Positions 46,717 to 52,495 of a stretch of DNA of 64,000 nt are shown one piece after another. The notes under the pieces were generated by a model. It ran no database searches and was not told the DNA's origin. It worked only from the letters and a program-made list of their open reading frames with translations. Origin of the DNA: Myxococcota bacterium. Lineage in GTDB: Bacteria > Myxococcota > XYA12-FULL-58-9 > JALHOP01. How positions within the stretch are numbered: the first letter of the stretch is position 1; each line of letters starts with the position of its first letter. The DNA lies in the NCBI GenBank assembly GCA_022842935.1, contig JALHOP010000003.1, forward strand, positions 1-64,000. The letters are read 5' to 3'. Made by a program: the position numbers and the translations under genes.

Positions 46717-47412
46717 ATGGACGATAGCTTCATCGCTGGCCAGACCATCCAGGACGCCGTGGTGCCGTACGGCGTGCGCCAGTTTCGCGCCGCGACGCGC
46801 TTGCCTCTCACTGAGATCCCGTCGCAGGGCGCGGCGCGATTTCAGCCCAAGAACCTCAGCATCGGCGGGGTCTTCGTGCTCGCGAGCTTTCGTCCCCCGG
46901 TGGGCTCCGTGTTTCGGCTGGCGTTGTGGTTCGCCGAGACGCGCCACGAAGTCGAGGGGCGCGTCACCCATCACCAGAACGATGGGTTTGGTCTCTCGTT
47001 CATCAGCCCGAGCCCGGAGCTTGTCGCAAGCCTCCGGGTCGTCCTCGACGAGCACATCCCACCCATCGAGCGTGAAGCCTACCAGGGCTTGAAGCGCACC
47101 ATGTATCGCGAGCTCGCCGATCGCCTGCGTGTCGCCTGGGCGCAGGGCAAGAACCGCTATGAAGCCACCTTGTACGAGCTTAGCGATAAAGGTGTCTTTC
47201 TGCAGACCGACATCGTTCCGGAGCACGGCTCGGAGATCTACGTCTATCTCCCCAGGCTCGAATCGGTTGGTCACCAAGTCGTCGCCGAACACCTCCACGC
47301 TGCCAAAGCCGAGGTTCGCTTTCGCAATTCGGGCCTGGTCGGCGCGGTGTTCGTGACCCCGAGCGCCGAGTTTCGCGTGACCATTCAAAAGCTCCTTGCG
47401 AGGGGCGCCTGA
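46717..47412 (+). CDS. Protein with two PilZ-like domains
   Basis: 231 residues. Module one (18-110) has the c-di-GMP Arg24-x3-Arg28 motif and Asn46-x-Ser48-x-x-Gly51. Module two (about 120-230) has the related RYEATLYELSDKGVFLQTD strand but no RxxxR. It is similar in plan to the PilZ protein at 22881 and lacks any enzymatic domain. A G/C inverted repeat at its stop (47411-47437) could end transcription before the lipoprotein A gene. Confidence 0.82.
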   Translation: MDDSFIAGQTIQDAVVPYGVRQFRAATRLPLTEIPSQGAARFQPKNLSIGGVFVLASFRPPVGSVFRLALWFAETRHEVEGRVTHHQNDGFGLSFISPSPELVASLRVVLDEHIPPIEREAYQGLKRTMYRELADRLRVAWAQGKNRYEATLYELSDKGVFLQTDIVPEHGSEIYVYLPRLESVGHQVVAEHLHAAKAEVRFRNSGLVGAVFVTPSAEFRVTIQKLLARGA

Positions 47413-47543
47413 CCCACCCCCTGGGTGCCTGTGGGTCCTTGCAGAACGCTACGAAAGATTTTTTCTGTCCTGGGCGTCTGCCGTGTCTAATCGGCAAACA
47501 TCGCGCACGCCCTTTTGGGGCCGTGCATCGCGAAGGAGACATC

Positions 47544-48515
47544 ATGCATTGGTCCAAGTTCCTCATTCCCGCCGGCTTCCTCTTCGCGGTTGCTTGCGGA
47601 AAAGAAGACGCCGCCTTCCAGGAAGCGTTGCCCAGCAAGGACGCTCTCACCGTCGACGCGCCGGACGCGAGCAACGCCCTCGCTGTCGGACAGCTCTCTG
47701 AGTATTACGTCATCACCCGGCTCGCGACCGTGGGCGTGAACGCCACCGTCGGCGGCATCTTCAACCTCCTCGAGGACATCGTTCGTTTCCCGCCAACAAC
47801 CGTCGAGGGTGAGACCGCGACCTGGGGCCCCGGTGCGGGGGATGCGCTCGACCCGAACGTCTACCGCTTGGTCGTCTCGGGTAAAGACAGCAAATTCGCC
47901 TACAGCTTCGAGTACCGTCGCAAGAACTCGGACGGCAACTTCATCGTGTTGGCCTCGGGTAACTCGGACAAGTCGAGCGGACAGGCTGACGGCGTGGGTG
48001 ACCTCACCATCTTCGTGAGCGCGTGGGGCGACGCGAGCCTGAACCCGTGCGACCGCGGCACGGCGGTCATCACCTATGACACCACCAGCCAACCGCAGAA
48101 GCTCGGCATCGACTTCTCGGACTTCCGCAGCTGTGAGGAGGCCGAAGACGGCGTCTACTCGGCGAGCTACTACTACGACCGCTTCGCCGATGGCAGCGGT
48201 AACTTCCAGTTCACCGCGAACGGCGACATCCAAGAAGGCGAGCGCACGCCCGCGGTTCTCGAGGACCTGGTGATCCGCTCGCGCTGGAACGCGACTGGCG
48301 CCGGTCGCTCGGACGCGAAAATCTCTGGGGGTGACTTGAGCCTCGAAGGCGTCAATGAGGTGACTGCGAGCGAGTGCTGGGATTCGAACTACGGCATCAC
48401 CTTCGCGGTGACGACGCCTCAGATCATCGACCTCGACCACGCAGCCGGCTCGCAGAGCGCCTGCCCGACGGGCATGCAGGAGGCGAGCTACTCGGTGGAC
48501 GCCTCGATCTTGTAA
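47544..48515 (+). CDS. Lipoprotein A, paralogue of lipoprotein B (51524-52495)
   Basis: 323 residues from the ATG at 47544 with AAGGAGA 4 bases upstream. The signal peptide ends Phe-Ala-Val-Ala-Cys. The mature part shares with lipoprotein B a FxxxxPxKxxLxxD start, an ASNALAVGQLSEYYVI/VANALVGAPSEFYELL region, a WGP turn, an ASECWD/ALECWD strand near the end and a closing Ala-Cys-Pro. Both are exactly 323 residues. No known domain is recognised. It precedes the sigma factor gene behind a terminator, so it is a likely target or partner of that system. Confidence 0.7.
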   Translation: MHWSKFLIPAGFLFAVACGKEDAAFQEALPSKDALTVDAPDASNALAVGQLSEYYVITRLATVGVNATVGGIFNLLEDIVRFPPTTVEGETATWGPGAGDALDPNVYRLVVSGKDSKFAYSFEYRRKNSDGNFIVLASGNSDKSSGQADGVGDLTIFVSAWGDASLNPCDRGTAVITYDTTSQPQKLGIDFSDFRSCEEAEDGVYSASYYYDRFADGSGNFQFTANGDIQEGERTPAVLEDLVIRSRWNATGAGRSDAKISGGDLSLEGVNEVTASECWDSNYGITFAVTTPQIIDLDHAAGSQSACPTGMQEASYSVDASIL

Positions 48516-48533
48516 CCAGGAACGACGCGTGTG

Positions 48534-48569
48534 AGCCCCCGCAGGTCACCCCGAGTGCCTGCGGGGGCT
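48534..48569 (+). terminator. Rho-independent-type terminator hairpin
   Basis: A 12-base perfect inverted repeat (AGCCCCCGCAGG at 48534-48545 with CCTGCGGGGGCT at 48558-48569) and a 12-base loop, followed by TTCTCG. It lies 19 bases after the lipoprotein A stop and 22 bases before the sigma factor start. The T-tract is weak, but the stem is very stable. It should separate lipoprotein A transcription from the sigma operon. Confidence 0.7.
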
Positions 48570-48591
48570 TCTCGCGTCGTAGATTGCTTCG

Positions 48592-49128
48592 ATGGACAAC
48601 AGCGACGAACGCCCAGACCTACGCGCTCTCTACGAGCGCTATGGTCATTCCGTGTTTCGACGCTGCCGCTACTTCTTGCGGACCGATGACGACGCGCGTG
48701 ATGCCATGCACGAGGTGTTTCTCAAGGCGGTCACCGCCTACGGAGATTTTCGCGGACAGGCGTCGCCGCTCACGTGGCTTACCCGCATCGCCACACACTA
48801 CTGCTTGAACGTGCTGCGTGGTCGAAAGGCTGGCTGGCACGAACGCTACGCCCAGGTGACCCATGTCGCCGCGCAATGGAATGAGCCGAGCCAGGCGCAG
48901 ATCGAGCGTGCCGAGTTGGTCCATCGCCTTCTCTCGCGGCTGGGTCGCGACGAGCAGGAGGCCGCTGTCTATTACTTCGTCGACGAGATGAGCCAGGATG
49001 AGGCCGCGCGCGCCTGCGACTGCTCGCTGCCTACCCTGCGTAAGCGCTTGCGTCGCTTCATCGAGGTGGCACGCAAAGAGCTCAAGCGCGAAGACGCGAC
49101 GCTGGTGTTTGGGGAGGCGCCAGTCTGA
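48592..49128 (+). CDS. ECF-type RNA polymerase sigma factor
   Basis: 178 residues. Region 2 (10-80) has the DDDARDAMHEVFLKAVTAY core and a WLTRIATHYCLNVLRGRK helix; region 4 (105-170) has the helix-turn-helix DEMSQDEAARACDCSLPTLRKRLRR. The lack of regions 1 and 3 fits the extracytoplasmic-function class. The anti-sigma-like membrane protein follows 75 bases later. It probably directs its own operon and nearby lipoproteins, but I could not identify its promoter with confidence. Confidence 0.92.
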   Translation: MDNSDERPDLRALYERYGHSVFRRCRYFLRTDDDARDAMHEVFLKAVTAYGDFRGQASPLTWLTRIATHYCLNVLRGRKAGWHERYAQVTHVAAQWNEPSQAQIERAELVHRLLSRLGRDEQEAAVYYFVDEMSQDEAARACDCSLPTLRKRLRRFIEVARKELKREDATLVFGEAPV

Positions 49129-49203
49129 CGGCGTCGTCCGTCATGTGATGTGGGACACGTTTTTCTTTTCTGATTCTTTCGCCCTGCGGGGTCTGTTGAT
49201 CCG

Positions 49204-49911
49204 ATGAGCACGCACGACGCCATCTCCCCATTCATGCTCGAGCGTTACGCCGTCGGCGAGCTCGAAGGTGCAGAGCTTGCTGCGGTCGAAGCGGCGCTCG
49301 CGGCCGACCCCCAGCTCGCCGCCCGCGTCGCCAGCATGCGCCAAGCGCGTGAGCAATTTCTCGCCGACGAACCGTACGCAGCTTTCCGTATCGAGCACGA
49401 GCGCCGGAGGACCCCAGCGAAGCAGCGCCTCGCCTTCTGGCTGCCGACGGGCTTTGCTGCCGCCGCTGCCGCGGCGCTTCTGCTGCTGTTCGTCGTCCCC
49501 GAGCTCGATACCGAGCGGGTGAAGGGCTCGGGCGTCGGCCTCACTGTCGCCTTGGTTGGCGCTGGGGCGCCCAAGCCGCTCGCGAGCGGCGCCCGCGTGC
49601 ATCCTGGCGACCGTTTGCAGCTCGCCTATGACGCTGGCGACTACGGCTACCTCGCGTTGATTGGAATCGATGGCAGCGGCGTCATGAGCGTCTACTATCC
49701 TGAGGGTGGTGATGTGATGGCGCGGAGGAGCGGGGAGTCGCGGGGAGCCTTTCCGTTCAGCCTGACGCTGGATGCGACCCCTGGCTCCGAGACGATGGTT
49801 GCGGTCTTCGCGGAGCAGCCGCTACCGCTCAAGCGGATCGAAGAGGCTGTGCGCAAGAACGAGGTTTTGCCGGGGGTTAGCGCGGTTCGCGTGGTGCTCG
49901 ACAAGGAGTAG
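49204..49911 (+). CDS. Membrane anti-sigma-like protein with DUF4384-type domain
   Basis: 235 residues. The cytoplasmic N-terminus (1-75) is helical (FMLERYAVGELEGAELAAVE), as in anti-sigma factors, but lacks the HxxxCxxC zinc motif. One transmembrane helix follows (about 80-98). The outer part (110-235) has a LASGARVHPGDRLQLAYDAG, DYGYLALIGIDGSGVMSVYYP pattern typical of DUF4384, often found near caspase-like proteins. The caspase gene's RBS (AAGGAG) lies inside its last codons. Its partner should be the ECF factor upstream. Confidence 0.75.
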   Translation: MSTHDAISPFMLERYAVGELEGAELAAVEAALAADPQLAARVASMRQAREQFLADEPYAAFRIEHERRRTPAKQRLAFWLPTGFAAAAAAALLLLFVVPELDTERVKGSGVGLTVALVGAGAPKPLASGARVHPGDRLQLAYDAGDYGYLALIGIDGSGVMSVYYPEGGDVMARRSGESRGAFPFSLTLDATPGSETMVAVFAEQPLPLKRIEEAVRKNEVLPGVSAVRVVLDKE

Positions 49912-49913
49912 TA

Positions 49914-51527
49914 GTGACCGGTTGGCTGCTCAGCATCGCGCTCGTCACGAGCGCTCTGAACGTCAACGAGCCCGCGGAACGCCGGGTCGCCCTCCTCGTG
50001 TCGCATCCGTTCGGCGGCGAAGATTTGACGCCCCTTCGCTATACCGACAACGACGTCGCCCGCATGCGTGACGTATTGCGCATGACCGGTGGCTTCGCCG
50101 AGCGTGACATTGTCGTCATCTCCGCCGAAGACGCGAACAAGGTGCGCGGCGCTTTCGCATCGCTACGCGAGCGGTTGCAGAACGACAAGCGCCCGTCTCT
50201 ACTGCTCTTCTACTATTCTGGCCACGCCAAAGACGGCGAGCTGCGCCTCGGGAAGTCGACGCTTCCGCTCACGGAAGTGAAGCGTCTGCTCGAGCAGACG
50301 CAAGCGTCTTTCCGCATCGCGCTCCTCGATGCGTGTCGGGTTGGCAGCATCACGCGTCTGAAAGGCGCCACCAAGGCAGAGCCCGTGAGCATCGATATCG
50401 ATGACACGACGATGCAGAGCGGCCAGGTGCTCATCACTGCATCGTCCGACGACGAAGACGCACAAGAGAGCGACGAGATCCAGGGCTCGTTCTTTACGCA
50501 CTATCTGACGAGCGGCTTGCGCGGGGCTGCCGACCTCGACCGGGATGGCCGCGTGACTCTCTCGGAGGCCTACGGGTTCGCATACGAGAACACCGTGTCG
50601 CGCACCGTCGCGACGCGTGGCGGCACGCAACACCCGACCTTCCGCTTCGACATGCGTGGCGCCGGCGATGTCACCCTGGCGCGGGCCGATGCGCCGACAT
50701 CGGGCATCAGCTTTCCCAAGTCGCTCGCAGGCGAGTTCGTGGTCTTCGACATCAAACGTCGTGTCGTCGTCGCTGAGCTCGCTAAAGATGCGAGCGAGAG
50801 CATGCGCGTCGCCGTTGCTCCTGGCGACTACATCGTCAAGAAGCGCGAGACTGACCACGTGCGCTTGGCCCGCCTCAAGGTACGTGATGACAACTTCGTG
50901 ACCGTCGACGCGAACGCGATGGAGAAAGTCGCTTTCGCGGACGACTACGCCAAGGGTCAGACCATCAGCGCGCAGGAGGTCATTCACGGCAAGCTCGGCG
51001 TCTTGCTGTCGGCCCAGCTCGGCGCCCAGTCGTTCTTGTCCGCGCCCATCCGCGACGCCTATGTACCGACGCTTGGACTCTTCAAGCTGACACTCGACTT
51101 GCGCAACGCCATTCGTCGCAACGTCGGCGTGCGCTTCGATATGGGTGTCGGCTCGAGCGGTGAACAGGGTCTCGCCGTGACCGACCCGATCATTGGCGAT
51201 CTCGGCTATCGGGCGCGCGTCTCGCTGTTTACCGCTGGCGTCGGGCTCACCGGCGACGTGCCCTTCACCTCATGGCTACGCTTGAGCGGAGTTGGCCGTA
51301 TCGGCTTCATCAGGGTCGCGCGCGAGTTCACCGGTGCCGAAGCTATTCCCGAGCAGAGCTTCTCGACGCTTACGCCTGGTCTCGAAGCGCGCTTGATCGC
51401 CCGTTGTACCAATTGGCTCGAGGCGGGCCTCGGCGCAGGTGTGCACTACATGTTCTTCAACGGGGACGAGTCGCAGTCGCTCGCTTACGTCGACGGCGGT
51501 CTCATCCTCACGGCGGTGCTGCGATGA
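49914..51527 (+). CDS. Exported caspase-like (peptidase C14) protein with C-terminal barrel-like domain
   Basis: 537 residues from a GTG with AAGGAG 5 bases upstream. The hydrophobic N-terminus (MTGWLLSIALVTSALN) looks like a signal peptide. The caspase-like domain (about 22-245) has catalytic His104 in LLFYYSGHAKDG and Cys141 in ALLDACRVGS, and a DLDRDGRVTLSEAYGF segment. Residues about 355-537 alternate hydrophobic and polar residues like a small outer-membrane barrel (LGVLLSAQLGAQSFL, YRARVSLFTAGVGLTGD), ending in Ala-Val-Leu-Arg. It overlaps lipoprotein B by 4 bases. Confidence 0.8.
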   Translation: MTGWLLSIALVTSALNVNEPAERRVALLVSHPFGGEDLTPLRYTDNDVARMRDVLRMTGGFAERDIVVISAEDANKVRGAFASLRERLQNDKRPSLLLFYYSGHAKDGELRLGKSTLPLTEVKRLLEQTQASFRIALLDACRVGSITRLKGATKAEPVSIDIDDTTMQSGQVLITASSDDEDAQESDEIQGSFFTHYLTSGLRGAADLDRDGRVTLSEAYGFAYENTVSRTVATRGGTQHPTFRFDMRGAGDVTLARADAPTSGISFPKSLAGEFVVFDIKRRVVVAELAKDASESMRVAVAPGDYIVKKRETDHVRLARLKVRDDNFVTVDANAMEKVAFADDYAKGQTISAQEVIHGKLGVLLSAQLGAQSFLSAPIRDAYVPTLGLFKLTLDLRNAIRRNVGVRFDMGVGSSGEQGLAVTDPIIGDLGYRARVSLFTAGVGLTGDVPFTSWLRLSGVGRIGFIRVAREFTGAEAIPEQSFSTLTPGLEARLIARCTNWLEAGLGAGVHYMFFNGDESQSLAYVDGGLILTAVLR

Positions 51528-52495
51528 AGCGCATCTTGCTCATGGCACTTCTCGGTGTGGCGGCGTGTGGGGAGCTCTCGAACGACGACCTGGTCTTCCT
51601 CCGCGGCGTGCCCGAGAAAGAGGAGCTCCGCATCGACGTCGAGCAAGGCGTCGCCAATGCGCTCGTCGGCGCGCCCTCCGAGTTTTACGAGCTCCTGGTC
51701 ACTTCGGCGGAGGACACGAACCAAGGCGTCGCGAACATTCTCGACTTCGTCGACAGCATCGGTGCCGGCTATCCAGCAACGACGCGCGAGCCCAACCTTC
51801 GCGTCTGGGGCCCCGTTCGCAACATCGATGGGGACGGCAACACGATCCGCTTCGAGGTGCGCCGCGAAGGTGAGACGTTCCGCTATTGTCTCCATGTCGC
51901 GCGCGACAGCGAGGTCACCGGCGAGCCCACGTGCGACGATGTCCCGGGCGGCTTTGGTATGGTTGCGGTCCTCTATGGCGAATATCGCCCGCGTACGGTG
52001 GGCGGGGGCGCGCGGCAGAGCGACGGCGTCACGACGCTCGACCACGAGGGTGCTTTTCTGCGCGGCATCGGATTCTCGCGCGGCAAGCTGTCCTTCACGC
52101 ACGCGTACTCCGAGGAGGGCGACACCAAGAGCATCGCCTTGACCGCCGAGGTGCCACAGATCGGACTGCAGCCGGCGGTGCGTGCTGCGTATTCGTACGA
52201 CCGGGACGTCGATGGTCGCGTGCTCTTCTCGCTCGACACGCCCGGGGACTTCATCGACACGACACGTATCCCAGAGGACCTGCAGATCGATGCCTGCTGG
52301 CGCGAGGGCGGTTCCGGGCGCGCCAATGTCGTCGTCAGCGGCGGCGACCTCTTGGGGTTTAGCCCCGCGACCGCCTTGGAGTGCTGGGACGCGAGCGTCG
52401 CTCGCACCTACGCAAGCTTCGAGTTCCCGGACTTCCCAGCCTTCAACGTCAACGAAGGCGACGTGGCCGCGTGCCCTCCTGCGACTTGCGACTGA
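51524..52495 (+). CDS. Lipoprotein B, paralogue of lipoprotein A (47544-48515)
   Basis: 323 residues; ATG overlaps the caspase stop. The signal peptide ends Val-Ala-Ala-Cys. It shares with lipoprotein A the Pro-x-Lys-x-x-Leu-x-x-Asp start, the SEFYELL segment, a WGP turn, an ECWD motif near residue 295 and the C-terminal Ala-Cys-Pro, at the same overall length. Function unknown. Coupling to the caspase gene suggests both act at the envelope, perhaps with B as the partner or substrate of the caspase domain; that is inference. Confidence 0.75.
   Translation: MKRILLMALLGVAACGELSNDDLVFLRGVPEKEELRIDVEQGVANALVGAPSEFYELLVTSAEDTNQGVANILDFVDSIGAGYPATTREPNLRVWGPVRNIDGDGNTIRFEVRREGETFRYCLHVARDSEVTGEPTCDDVPGGFGMVAVLYGEYRPRTVGGGARQSDGVTTLDHEGAFLRGIGFSRGKLSFTHAYSEEGDTKSIALTAEVPQIGLQPAVRAAYSYDRDVDGRVLFSLDTPGDFIDTTRIPEDLQIDACWREGGSGRANVVVSGGDLLGFSPATALECWDASVARTYASFEFPDFPAFNVNEGDVAACPPATCD

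Follow-up and report, generated by a model that had tools for sequence, protein, structure and literature searches.

What does a caspase-like protease do when its gene stands in an operon with those of a sigma factor and a membrane-bound anti-sigma? Caspase homologues are numerous in myxobacteria and, to our knowledge, almost none of them has a known substrate or job; bacterial caspases have mostly been discussed in connection with cell death. The question is raised by a locus in the first 64,000 nucleotides of contig JALHOP010000003.1 from a Myxococcota bacterium (GCA_022842935.1); this whole stretch is referred to here as the window. At 47544-52495 it carries, in this order, a lipoprotein gene (lipA), the gene of an extracytoplasmic function (ECF) sigma factor, an anti-sigma gene whose product includes a DUF4384 part, the gene of an exported caspase and a second lipoprotein gene (lipB). 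A first-pass annotation had read these genes as one envelope system in which the sigma factor drives a secreted protease that has the two lipoproteins as partners or substrates. Our analysis, which relies throughout on sequence and predicted structure, points to a different direction of control. An xKG motif is common to a loop of the caspase and the juxtamembrane segment of the anti-sigma, suggesting that the caspase is the activator of the sigma factor and not its output, and on balance we consider it probable that the site-1 protease for this anti-sigma is the neighbouring outer-membrane caspase, whose cut would free the ECF factor.

The genes, their positions, the four-base overlap (ATGA) of the caspase stop with the lipB start and the catalytic residues His104 and Cys141 were as first annotated, in agreement with Pfam, NCBIfam and the coordinates (Table 1), except that the announced set of six genes has five. 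The sigma factor matches Sigma70_r2 (9e-14) and r4_2 (3e-7) in Pfam and TIGR02937 in NCBIfam (2e-21) and consists of regions 2 and 4 only, as an ECF factor does. The caspase was searched for in 58 relatives and then, by alignment, in 117 genomes drawn over the Myxococcota, and the same 117 genomes were searched with a lipoprotein alignment; the homologues were thus collected with profiles built from these same loci. Full-length caspase relatives form a clear class of 57 proteins in 56 of these genomes. A lipoprotein of the family lies immediately downstream of the caspase in 55 of the 57 cases, and 41 have an additional copy upstream. One of the two exceptions ends at a contig end (G022) and in the other the lipoprotein is located on a different contig (G019). 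Several unpaired lipoproteins are the opposite ends of split loci (L142, L143, L148), and the caspase-less Myxococcus-like genomes G053, G076, G101 and G106 gave weak matches only and no true lipoproteins. A scan of named genomes found 80 loci, nearly all from Myxococcota by record name (Myxococcus, Corallococcus, Archangium, Pyxidicoccus, Citreicoccus and Anaeromyxobacter, plus metagenome-assembled genomes), in the recurring orders lip-ECF-anti-caspase-lip or ECF-anti-caspase-lip; the sigma, anti-sigma and caspase genes are together in nearly all loci of sufficient length. Since the conservation spans the phylum, this synteny rules out a chance neighbourhood. With a common promoter motif that ties the lipoproteins and the caspase to the sigma factor (see below), the gene order supports the view of the first-pass annotation that the five genes are one envelope system, conserved across myxobacteria and their relatives.

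A few of these loci have peculiarities of their own. In genome G004 the lipA-ECF part (L142, C39) and the anti-caspase-lipB part (L034, C117) are on two contigs, each with the promoter element, so that either the operon is split or the contig breaks here. At 104-2503 of L041/L063 the anti-sigma and the caspase share one open frame with no intervening stop, which points to a gene fusion or to a fault in the assembly. The myxobacterial operon also turns up in records titled Comamonas sp. KCTC 72670 (L079) and Klebsiella pneumoniae (L131); L079 groups inside Myxococcus in the lipoprotein tree, and both titles are probably mislabelled.

The caspase matches Pfam Peptidase_C14 (4e-13, above the cut-off) and, distantly, the sequences of metacaspase structures; it has a p20 domain with the His-Cys dyad, and His104, Cys141 and Asp139 are kept in 78 of 78 relatives. 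The conserved acidic residues E181, E185 and D187 appear compatible with specificity for Arg or Lys. It is exported, as first annotated, but it is probably not secreted free. AlphaFold2 predicts for residues 262-537 (68 sequences; mean predicted local distance difference test score, pLDDT, 92.8) a beta-rich domain and eight long strands, for which Foldseek returned OmpA, OmpX, Ail and NspA (best E 2e-7, target template modelling score 0.63-0.76). The predicted structure is that of an 8-stranded barrel of the OmpA/OmpX type, and the Pfam models OMP_b-brl or Opacity match about 10 of the 68 relatives. Such a barrel would probably tether the caspase to the periplasmic face of the outer membrane. 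Both termini of OmpA-type barrels are periplasmic, which should leave the N-terminal caspase domain on the periplasmic side; the signal peptide, the barrel and the membrane topology of the anti-sigma together place the caspase domain on the same predicted side as DUF4384. The predicted OmpA/OmpX-like barrel on this caspase is a new observation, and the first-pass annotation had missed it together with the promoter motifs and the common RxKG motif.

In the anti-sigma, the N-terminal part gives weak matches to anti-sigma models of NCBIfam (4.5e-6, below the cut-off), and the DUF4384 match (3.7e-5) is slightly under the cut-off of Pfam. A single transmembrane helix (about residues 76-99), flanked by basic residues on its cytoplasmic side, leaves DUF4384 in the periplasm. 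Among 45 homologues, 19 match zf-HC2 and 38 keep the zinc-binding HxxxCxxC that the window protein has lost; the sole invariant column is K107, which belongs to an R-V-K-G sequence just beyond the helix. The caspase has R-L-K-G in the loop that follows its catalytic cysteine: eight residues separate Cys from K, and K150 and G151 are invariant (alignment A1), with R148 before them. This post-Cys region is where caspases and metacaspases undergo inter-subunit processing, and the RxKG of the loop is likely to be a self-processing site. Orthocaspases and metacaspases cleave after Arg or Lys in the P1 position (PMC6426788, PMC9622860), and the orthocaspase MaOC1 autoprocesses (PMC5756287). That a protease and the anti-sigma encoded next to it have this motif in common is, at the level of sequence, a new observation.

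We counted the motif in two classes, namely this caspase class (class 1) and a larger class of ECF-anti-caspase operons without lipoproteins (class 2). In class 1, KG is present in all 80 caspases with a neighbouring anti-sigma and in 73 of the 80 anti-sigmas; four of the exceptions keep K, followed by A or S, which are still small (L059, L064, L081, L083), and the other three (L063, L077, L078) are fragments that a contig end had cut or that were picked wrongly. The class 2 figures, in which a few duplicate rows are included, are 42/46 for the caspases and 42/46 for the anti-sigmas. Over both classes 111 distinct pairs have KG in both partners. At the position two before K, 97 pairs have a basic residue in both partners, 6 in neither and 8 in one only (Fisher p 1.5e-5, kinship ignored), striking examples being GIKG/GIKG (L026), AVKG/GIKG (L181) and QVKG/AIKG (L186). 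In L274 and L196 caspase and anti-sigma alike lack the motif, and several caspases outside ECF-anti operons are without it (L254, L255, L260). Might the resemblance be coincidental, the KG of the caspase being part of its fold and the R-x-K-G of the anti-sigma a membrane-interface motif for another, DegS-like protease, so that the linkage of the genes reflects co-regulation only? Basic residues are common near membranes, and some caspases for which no neighbouring anti-sigma was detected have KG as well. We nevertheless find coincidence improbable: KG was present in none of 21 control zinc-finger anti-sigmas not beside a caspase in four genomes, it is retained in divergent caspases where the motif lies four residues further from Cys, and the P3 residue covaries between the partners.

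The proposed cleavage of the anti-sigma by the caspase has to be weighed against several points. The covariation at P3 is drawn from related sequences. The caspases with KG and no anti-sigma found nearby number 11, some of them at contig ends or with an anti-sigma that was missed, and L032 pairs a caspase that has GKG with an anti-sigma that lacks the motif. The KG loop could be an element of the caspase fold or of its specificity, not a processing site. The structural model spans the C-terminal part of the caspase as a single chain without the anti-sigma, and the transmembrane helix, the signal peptide and the lipoboxes were assigned by hydropathy and pattern.

The operon also appears to be under the control of its own sigma factor. 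An element TTTCTGT-N14-GTGTC(C/T)A, about 50-110 bases before the start of lipA, is found in 34 of 43 genomes, in each case on the coding strand, in a scan that tolerated a few variant bases in its first part (mean by chance in shuffled sequence 0.015). Its spacing fits an ECF promoter while its -35 part is unusual, and the canonical ECF -35 motifs GGAAC and TGAAC showed no enrichment upstream of lipA. A promoter scan of the locus called no sigma-70 promoters. The exact element has three matches in the organism's own genome (6.28 Mb), one of them at lipA, and under a strict pattern most of 20 Myxococcaceae genomes with the operon have it there and in at most one other place. With three mismatches allowed, the seven genomes that had a match gave 1-4 matches each and the control 0-1, and the matches were mostly unshared. 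In the order seen in the window, the operon is interrupted ahead of the anti-sigma gene; a degenerate second copy of the element lies there, and it is clear at this place in both relatives with the same order (G004, G005). The caspase and both lipoproteins are therefore probably in the regulon of this one sigma factor, which probably also governs its own gene and that of the anti-sigma. At the sequence level, then, the sigma and caspase genes are linked and the motif-defined regulon includes the caspase and the lipoproteins. In three Corallococcus genomes (L138:2925, L216, L217) the element also precedes the gene of an exported CxxCH (cytochrome-like) protein, likely a second member of the regulon.

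The first-pass annotation was thus right to place the caspase under the sigma factor, as far as the motif tells, but the xKG motif common to protease and anti-sigma points to the caspase as activator. It might still be an output: some other protease would free the sigma factor, and the caspase, induced under stress, would act as an effector by degrading envelope proteins or causing lysis, while the lipoproteins would serve as chaperones or guards. A promoter that puts the caspase in the regulon of the sigma factor is what this account expects, effectors are frequent in autoregulated operons, and the association of bacterial caspases with cell death in the general literature suits it too. It leaves unexplained, however, why the invariant juxtamembrane lysine of the anti-sigma matches the caspase loop, why the 21 control anti-sigmas are without the motif and why both partners lack it in L274 and L196; one operon per genome with a tiny regulon would also be odd for a general effector programme. 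We regard an effector role as unlikely, though it deserves to be taken seriously.

The lipoproteins are a widespread family without a database name. LipA and LipB are paralogues of equal length (323 residues) that bracket the set, as first annotated, with 27% identity (BLASTP E 7e-23). In a tree of 75 family members the copies immediately downstream of the caspase all lie to the same side of one branch (support 98/93), as do the upstream copies with respect to another (93/72). The duplication is therefore old, and a copy in one position is not equivalent to a copy in the other. None of the 75 matches Pfam, no NCBIfam model matched the lipoproteins of the window and of Citreicoccus/Corallococcus, and there was no match to PDB sequences. 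LipB has a confident AlphaFold2 model (pLDDT 89.7, predicted template modelling score 0.84), and comparison of the predicted fold with PDB structures gave nothing at E <= 0.001. Both lipoproteins are presumed to be in the outer membrane. That two lipoprotein genes from two old clades flank the operon in most Myxococcaceae would agree with the lipoproteins being the main substrates of the caspase and signalling through the barrel when cleaved. We think this very improbable, as the family has no conserved basic cleavage motif: R-x-K-G is present in just 10 of 75 members, and the invariant residues are Cys, Trp and Gly. For the same reason the lipoproteins are likelier to be sensors or regulators of the barrel-caspase than its substrates; of the two roles first proposed for them, that of partner is favoured, and they look like partners or sensors. 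Members of the family also stand alone, distant from any caspase (L139-L141, L144-L147, L149-L156), and the organism's own genome holds one of these (C7:91005-91940).

From the conserved gene set, the topology-compatible domains, the common motif and the promoter motif, all read from the sequences, we infer a cleavage, its order, its signal and a role for the lipoproteins as follows. At rest the inner-membrane anti-sigma would hold the ECF factor, and the barrel would anchor the periplasmic caspase to the outer membrane, on its inner side, next to the two lipoproteins. A signal at the outer membrane, sensed by the barrel, the lipoproteins or both, would activate the caspase, probably with self-cleavage after the lysine of R-x-K-G in the post-Cys loop; this signal may be envelope damage, as the first-pass annotation proposed. 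The active caspase would then cut the anti-sigma between K107 and G108 of its R-x-K-G, outside the inner membrane (site 1), and a housekeeping site-2 protease of the M50/RseP type would complete the cleavage; the organism's own genome has four matches to M50 proteases. The freed sigma factor would transcribe its own operon from one or more TTTC-N17-GTGTC promoters, and caspase, anti-sigma and lipoproteins would rise.

We found no description of an ECF/caspase/anti-sigma system in Myxococcota in the non-subscription literature, where the search gave only a review that mentions CHAT neighbours of ECF54 and the work on Csx29; the first-pass annotation likewise knew of no system with this composition. 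The closest described logic is that of the type III-E CRISPR system Craspase, in which the caspase-like protease Csx29 releases the ECF factor CASP-sigma by cutting Csx30 (PMC10028731). As is proposed for the window, a caspase-fold protease encoded beside an ECF gene cuts the inhibitor of the sigma factor and relieves the inhibition, and the locus carries binding sites of its own sigma factor (PMC10028731). The Craspase protease, however, is a cytosolic TPR-CHAT protein that is switched by Cas7-11 and target RNA, and its inhibitor Csx30 is soluble (PMC10028731), whereas the window has an exported Peptidase_C14 that is probably fixed to the outer membrane, a membrane anti-sigma and a predicted cut between Lys and Gly. 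There are no Cas genes among the locus genes examined, and the protease is Peptidase_C14 plus barrel and not TPR-CHAT; the system would work like Craspase without being a member of it. For ECF54, neighbouring proteases that include caspase-like CHAT proteins have been proposed to control the ECF factor (PMC8999054). They are proposed to do so without an anti-sigma (PMC8999054), whereas the window has a conserved one with a candidate cleavage site.

The scheme also resembles the DegS-RseA-RseP pathway of E. coli sigma-E in its outer-membrane signal and in the expected order of a periplasmic site-1 cut in a single-pass anti-sigma followed by an M50 protease at site 2. DegS, however, is an inner-membrane PDZ serine protease, whereas the site-1 protease proposed here is an outer-membrane caspase, and the two lipoproteins, without a Pfam match, have no sequence relation to known sigma-E regulators. 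The locus has no DegS-like PDZ serine protease gene; the caspase is its sole protease gene. Cell-surface signalling of the FecA type (TonB-dependent transducer, anti-sigma, ECF) is comparable in that a barrel in the outer membrane passes a signal across the periplasm to an anti-sigma in the inner membrane, but here the barrel is 8-stranded and OmpA-like, has its own protease and has no described ligand; no TonB-dependent receptor with a signalling domain was found among the locus and neighbouring genes scanned. With orthocaspases such as MaOC1 the window caspase has in common the p20 domain and the His-Cys dyad and, as expected properties, Arg/Lys specificity and self-processing (PMC5756287), and it differs from them in its signal peptide, its C-terminal OmpA-like barrel and its fixed place in an ECF/anti-sigma operon.

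Two further features of the locus concern its expression and its surroundings. The first-pass annotation had placed a terminator after lipA. The segment 48516-48591 does form a very stable hairpin (-48.2 kcal/mol, z -4.0), but without a U-tract, and a terminator scan gave no call there; the relatives compared, whose gaps are 2-61 bases, have no counterpart. The hairpin may set the ratio of lipA to ECF expression. Directly upstream of lipA, and outside the conserved set, a PilZ-domain protein is encoded at 46717-47412 (Pfam PilZ, two stretches). An anti-phage role was considered and rejected, PADLOC yielding a lone caspase match (E 0.027) and no system.

Table 1. Features of the ECF-caspase locus, in window coordinates.
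Feature	Position	Strand	Description
TTTCTGT-N14-GTGTCTA before lipA	47462-47489	+	inferred sigma-dependent promoter
lipA	47544-48515	+	upstream lipoprotein, 323 aa, lipobox Cys18
Hairpin between lipA and ECF gene	48522-48580	+	strong, without U-tract
ECF sigma gene	48592-49128	+	178 aa, Sigma70_r2 + r4_2
Degenerate second element before anti-sigma gene	49167-49193	+	TTTCTGA-N15-GGGTC, 10/12 positions
Anti-sigma gene	49204-49911	+	cytoplasmic class-I-like domain, one transmembrane helix, periplasmic DUF4384
R105-V-K107-G108 of anti-sigma	49516-49527	+	predicted cleavage site immediately outside inner membrane
Caspase gene	49914-51527	+	Peptidase_C14, 537 aa, GTG start, signal peptide
Catalytic His104	50223-50225	+	caspase dyad
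Catalytic Cys141	50334-50336	+	caspase dyad
R148-L-K150-G151 of caspase	50355-50366	+	loop after catalytic Cys, predicted self-processing site
Caspase C-terminal region	50697-51524	+	residues 262-537, beta-rich domain then predicted barrel from about residue 362
lipB	51524-52495	+	downstream lipoprotein, 323 aa, lipobox Cys15

The operons of class 2 include one in the organism's own genome (L031, C5:84500-100000) as well as L022-L030 and L157-L191; their caspases have signal peptides and varied C-termini, many of which end like outer-membrane barrels. The number of matches in the caspase search varied between genomes, from none to 22 (G018). Another type of caspase, with the active site A-T-C-H-S, lies beside an ECF gene in L259 (6.10 Mb in G049) and L269 (8.43 Mb in G071), where the KG motif is absent and an anti-sigma like the present one was not detected. 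A search for DUF4384 was too insensitive to serve as a general handle on such loci.

A broader proposal, to which we give about an even chance, is that the Myxococcota run a family of caspase-switched ECF pathways in which exported caspases cut their cognate anti-sigmas after the lysine of (R)xKG. Many of these caspases, of which a genome has between none and about 20, would probably be anchored in the outer membrane by a barrel, and the module in the window would be the version that has paired lipoproteins of unrecognised fold, likely as sensors. The substrate, a single scissile bond (K107-G108), a periplasmic location anchored to the outer membrane and a readout from one promoter are predicted jointly, and the operon is present in culturable genera (Corallococcus, Myxococcus), so that what bacterial caspases cut becomes directly testable. 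If the proposal is true, an outer-membrane-anchored site-1 protease would join the known routes of ECF activation, and a bacterial caspase would be a signalling switch across the envelope and not a killer, a role that has not been described for this family of proteases.

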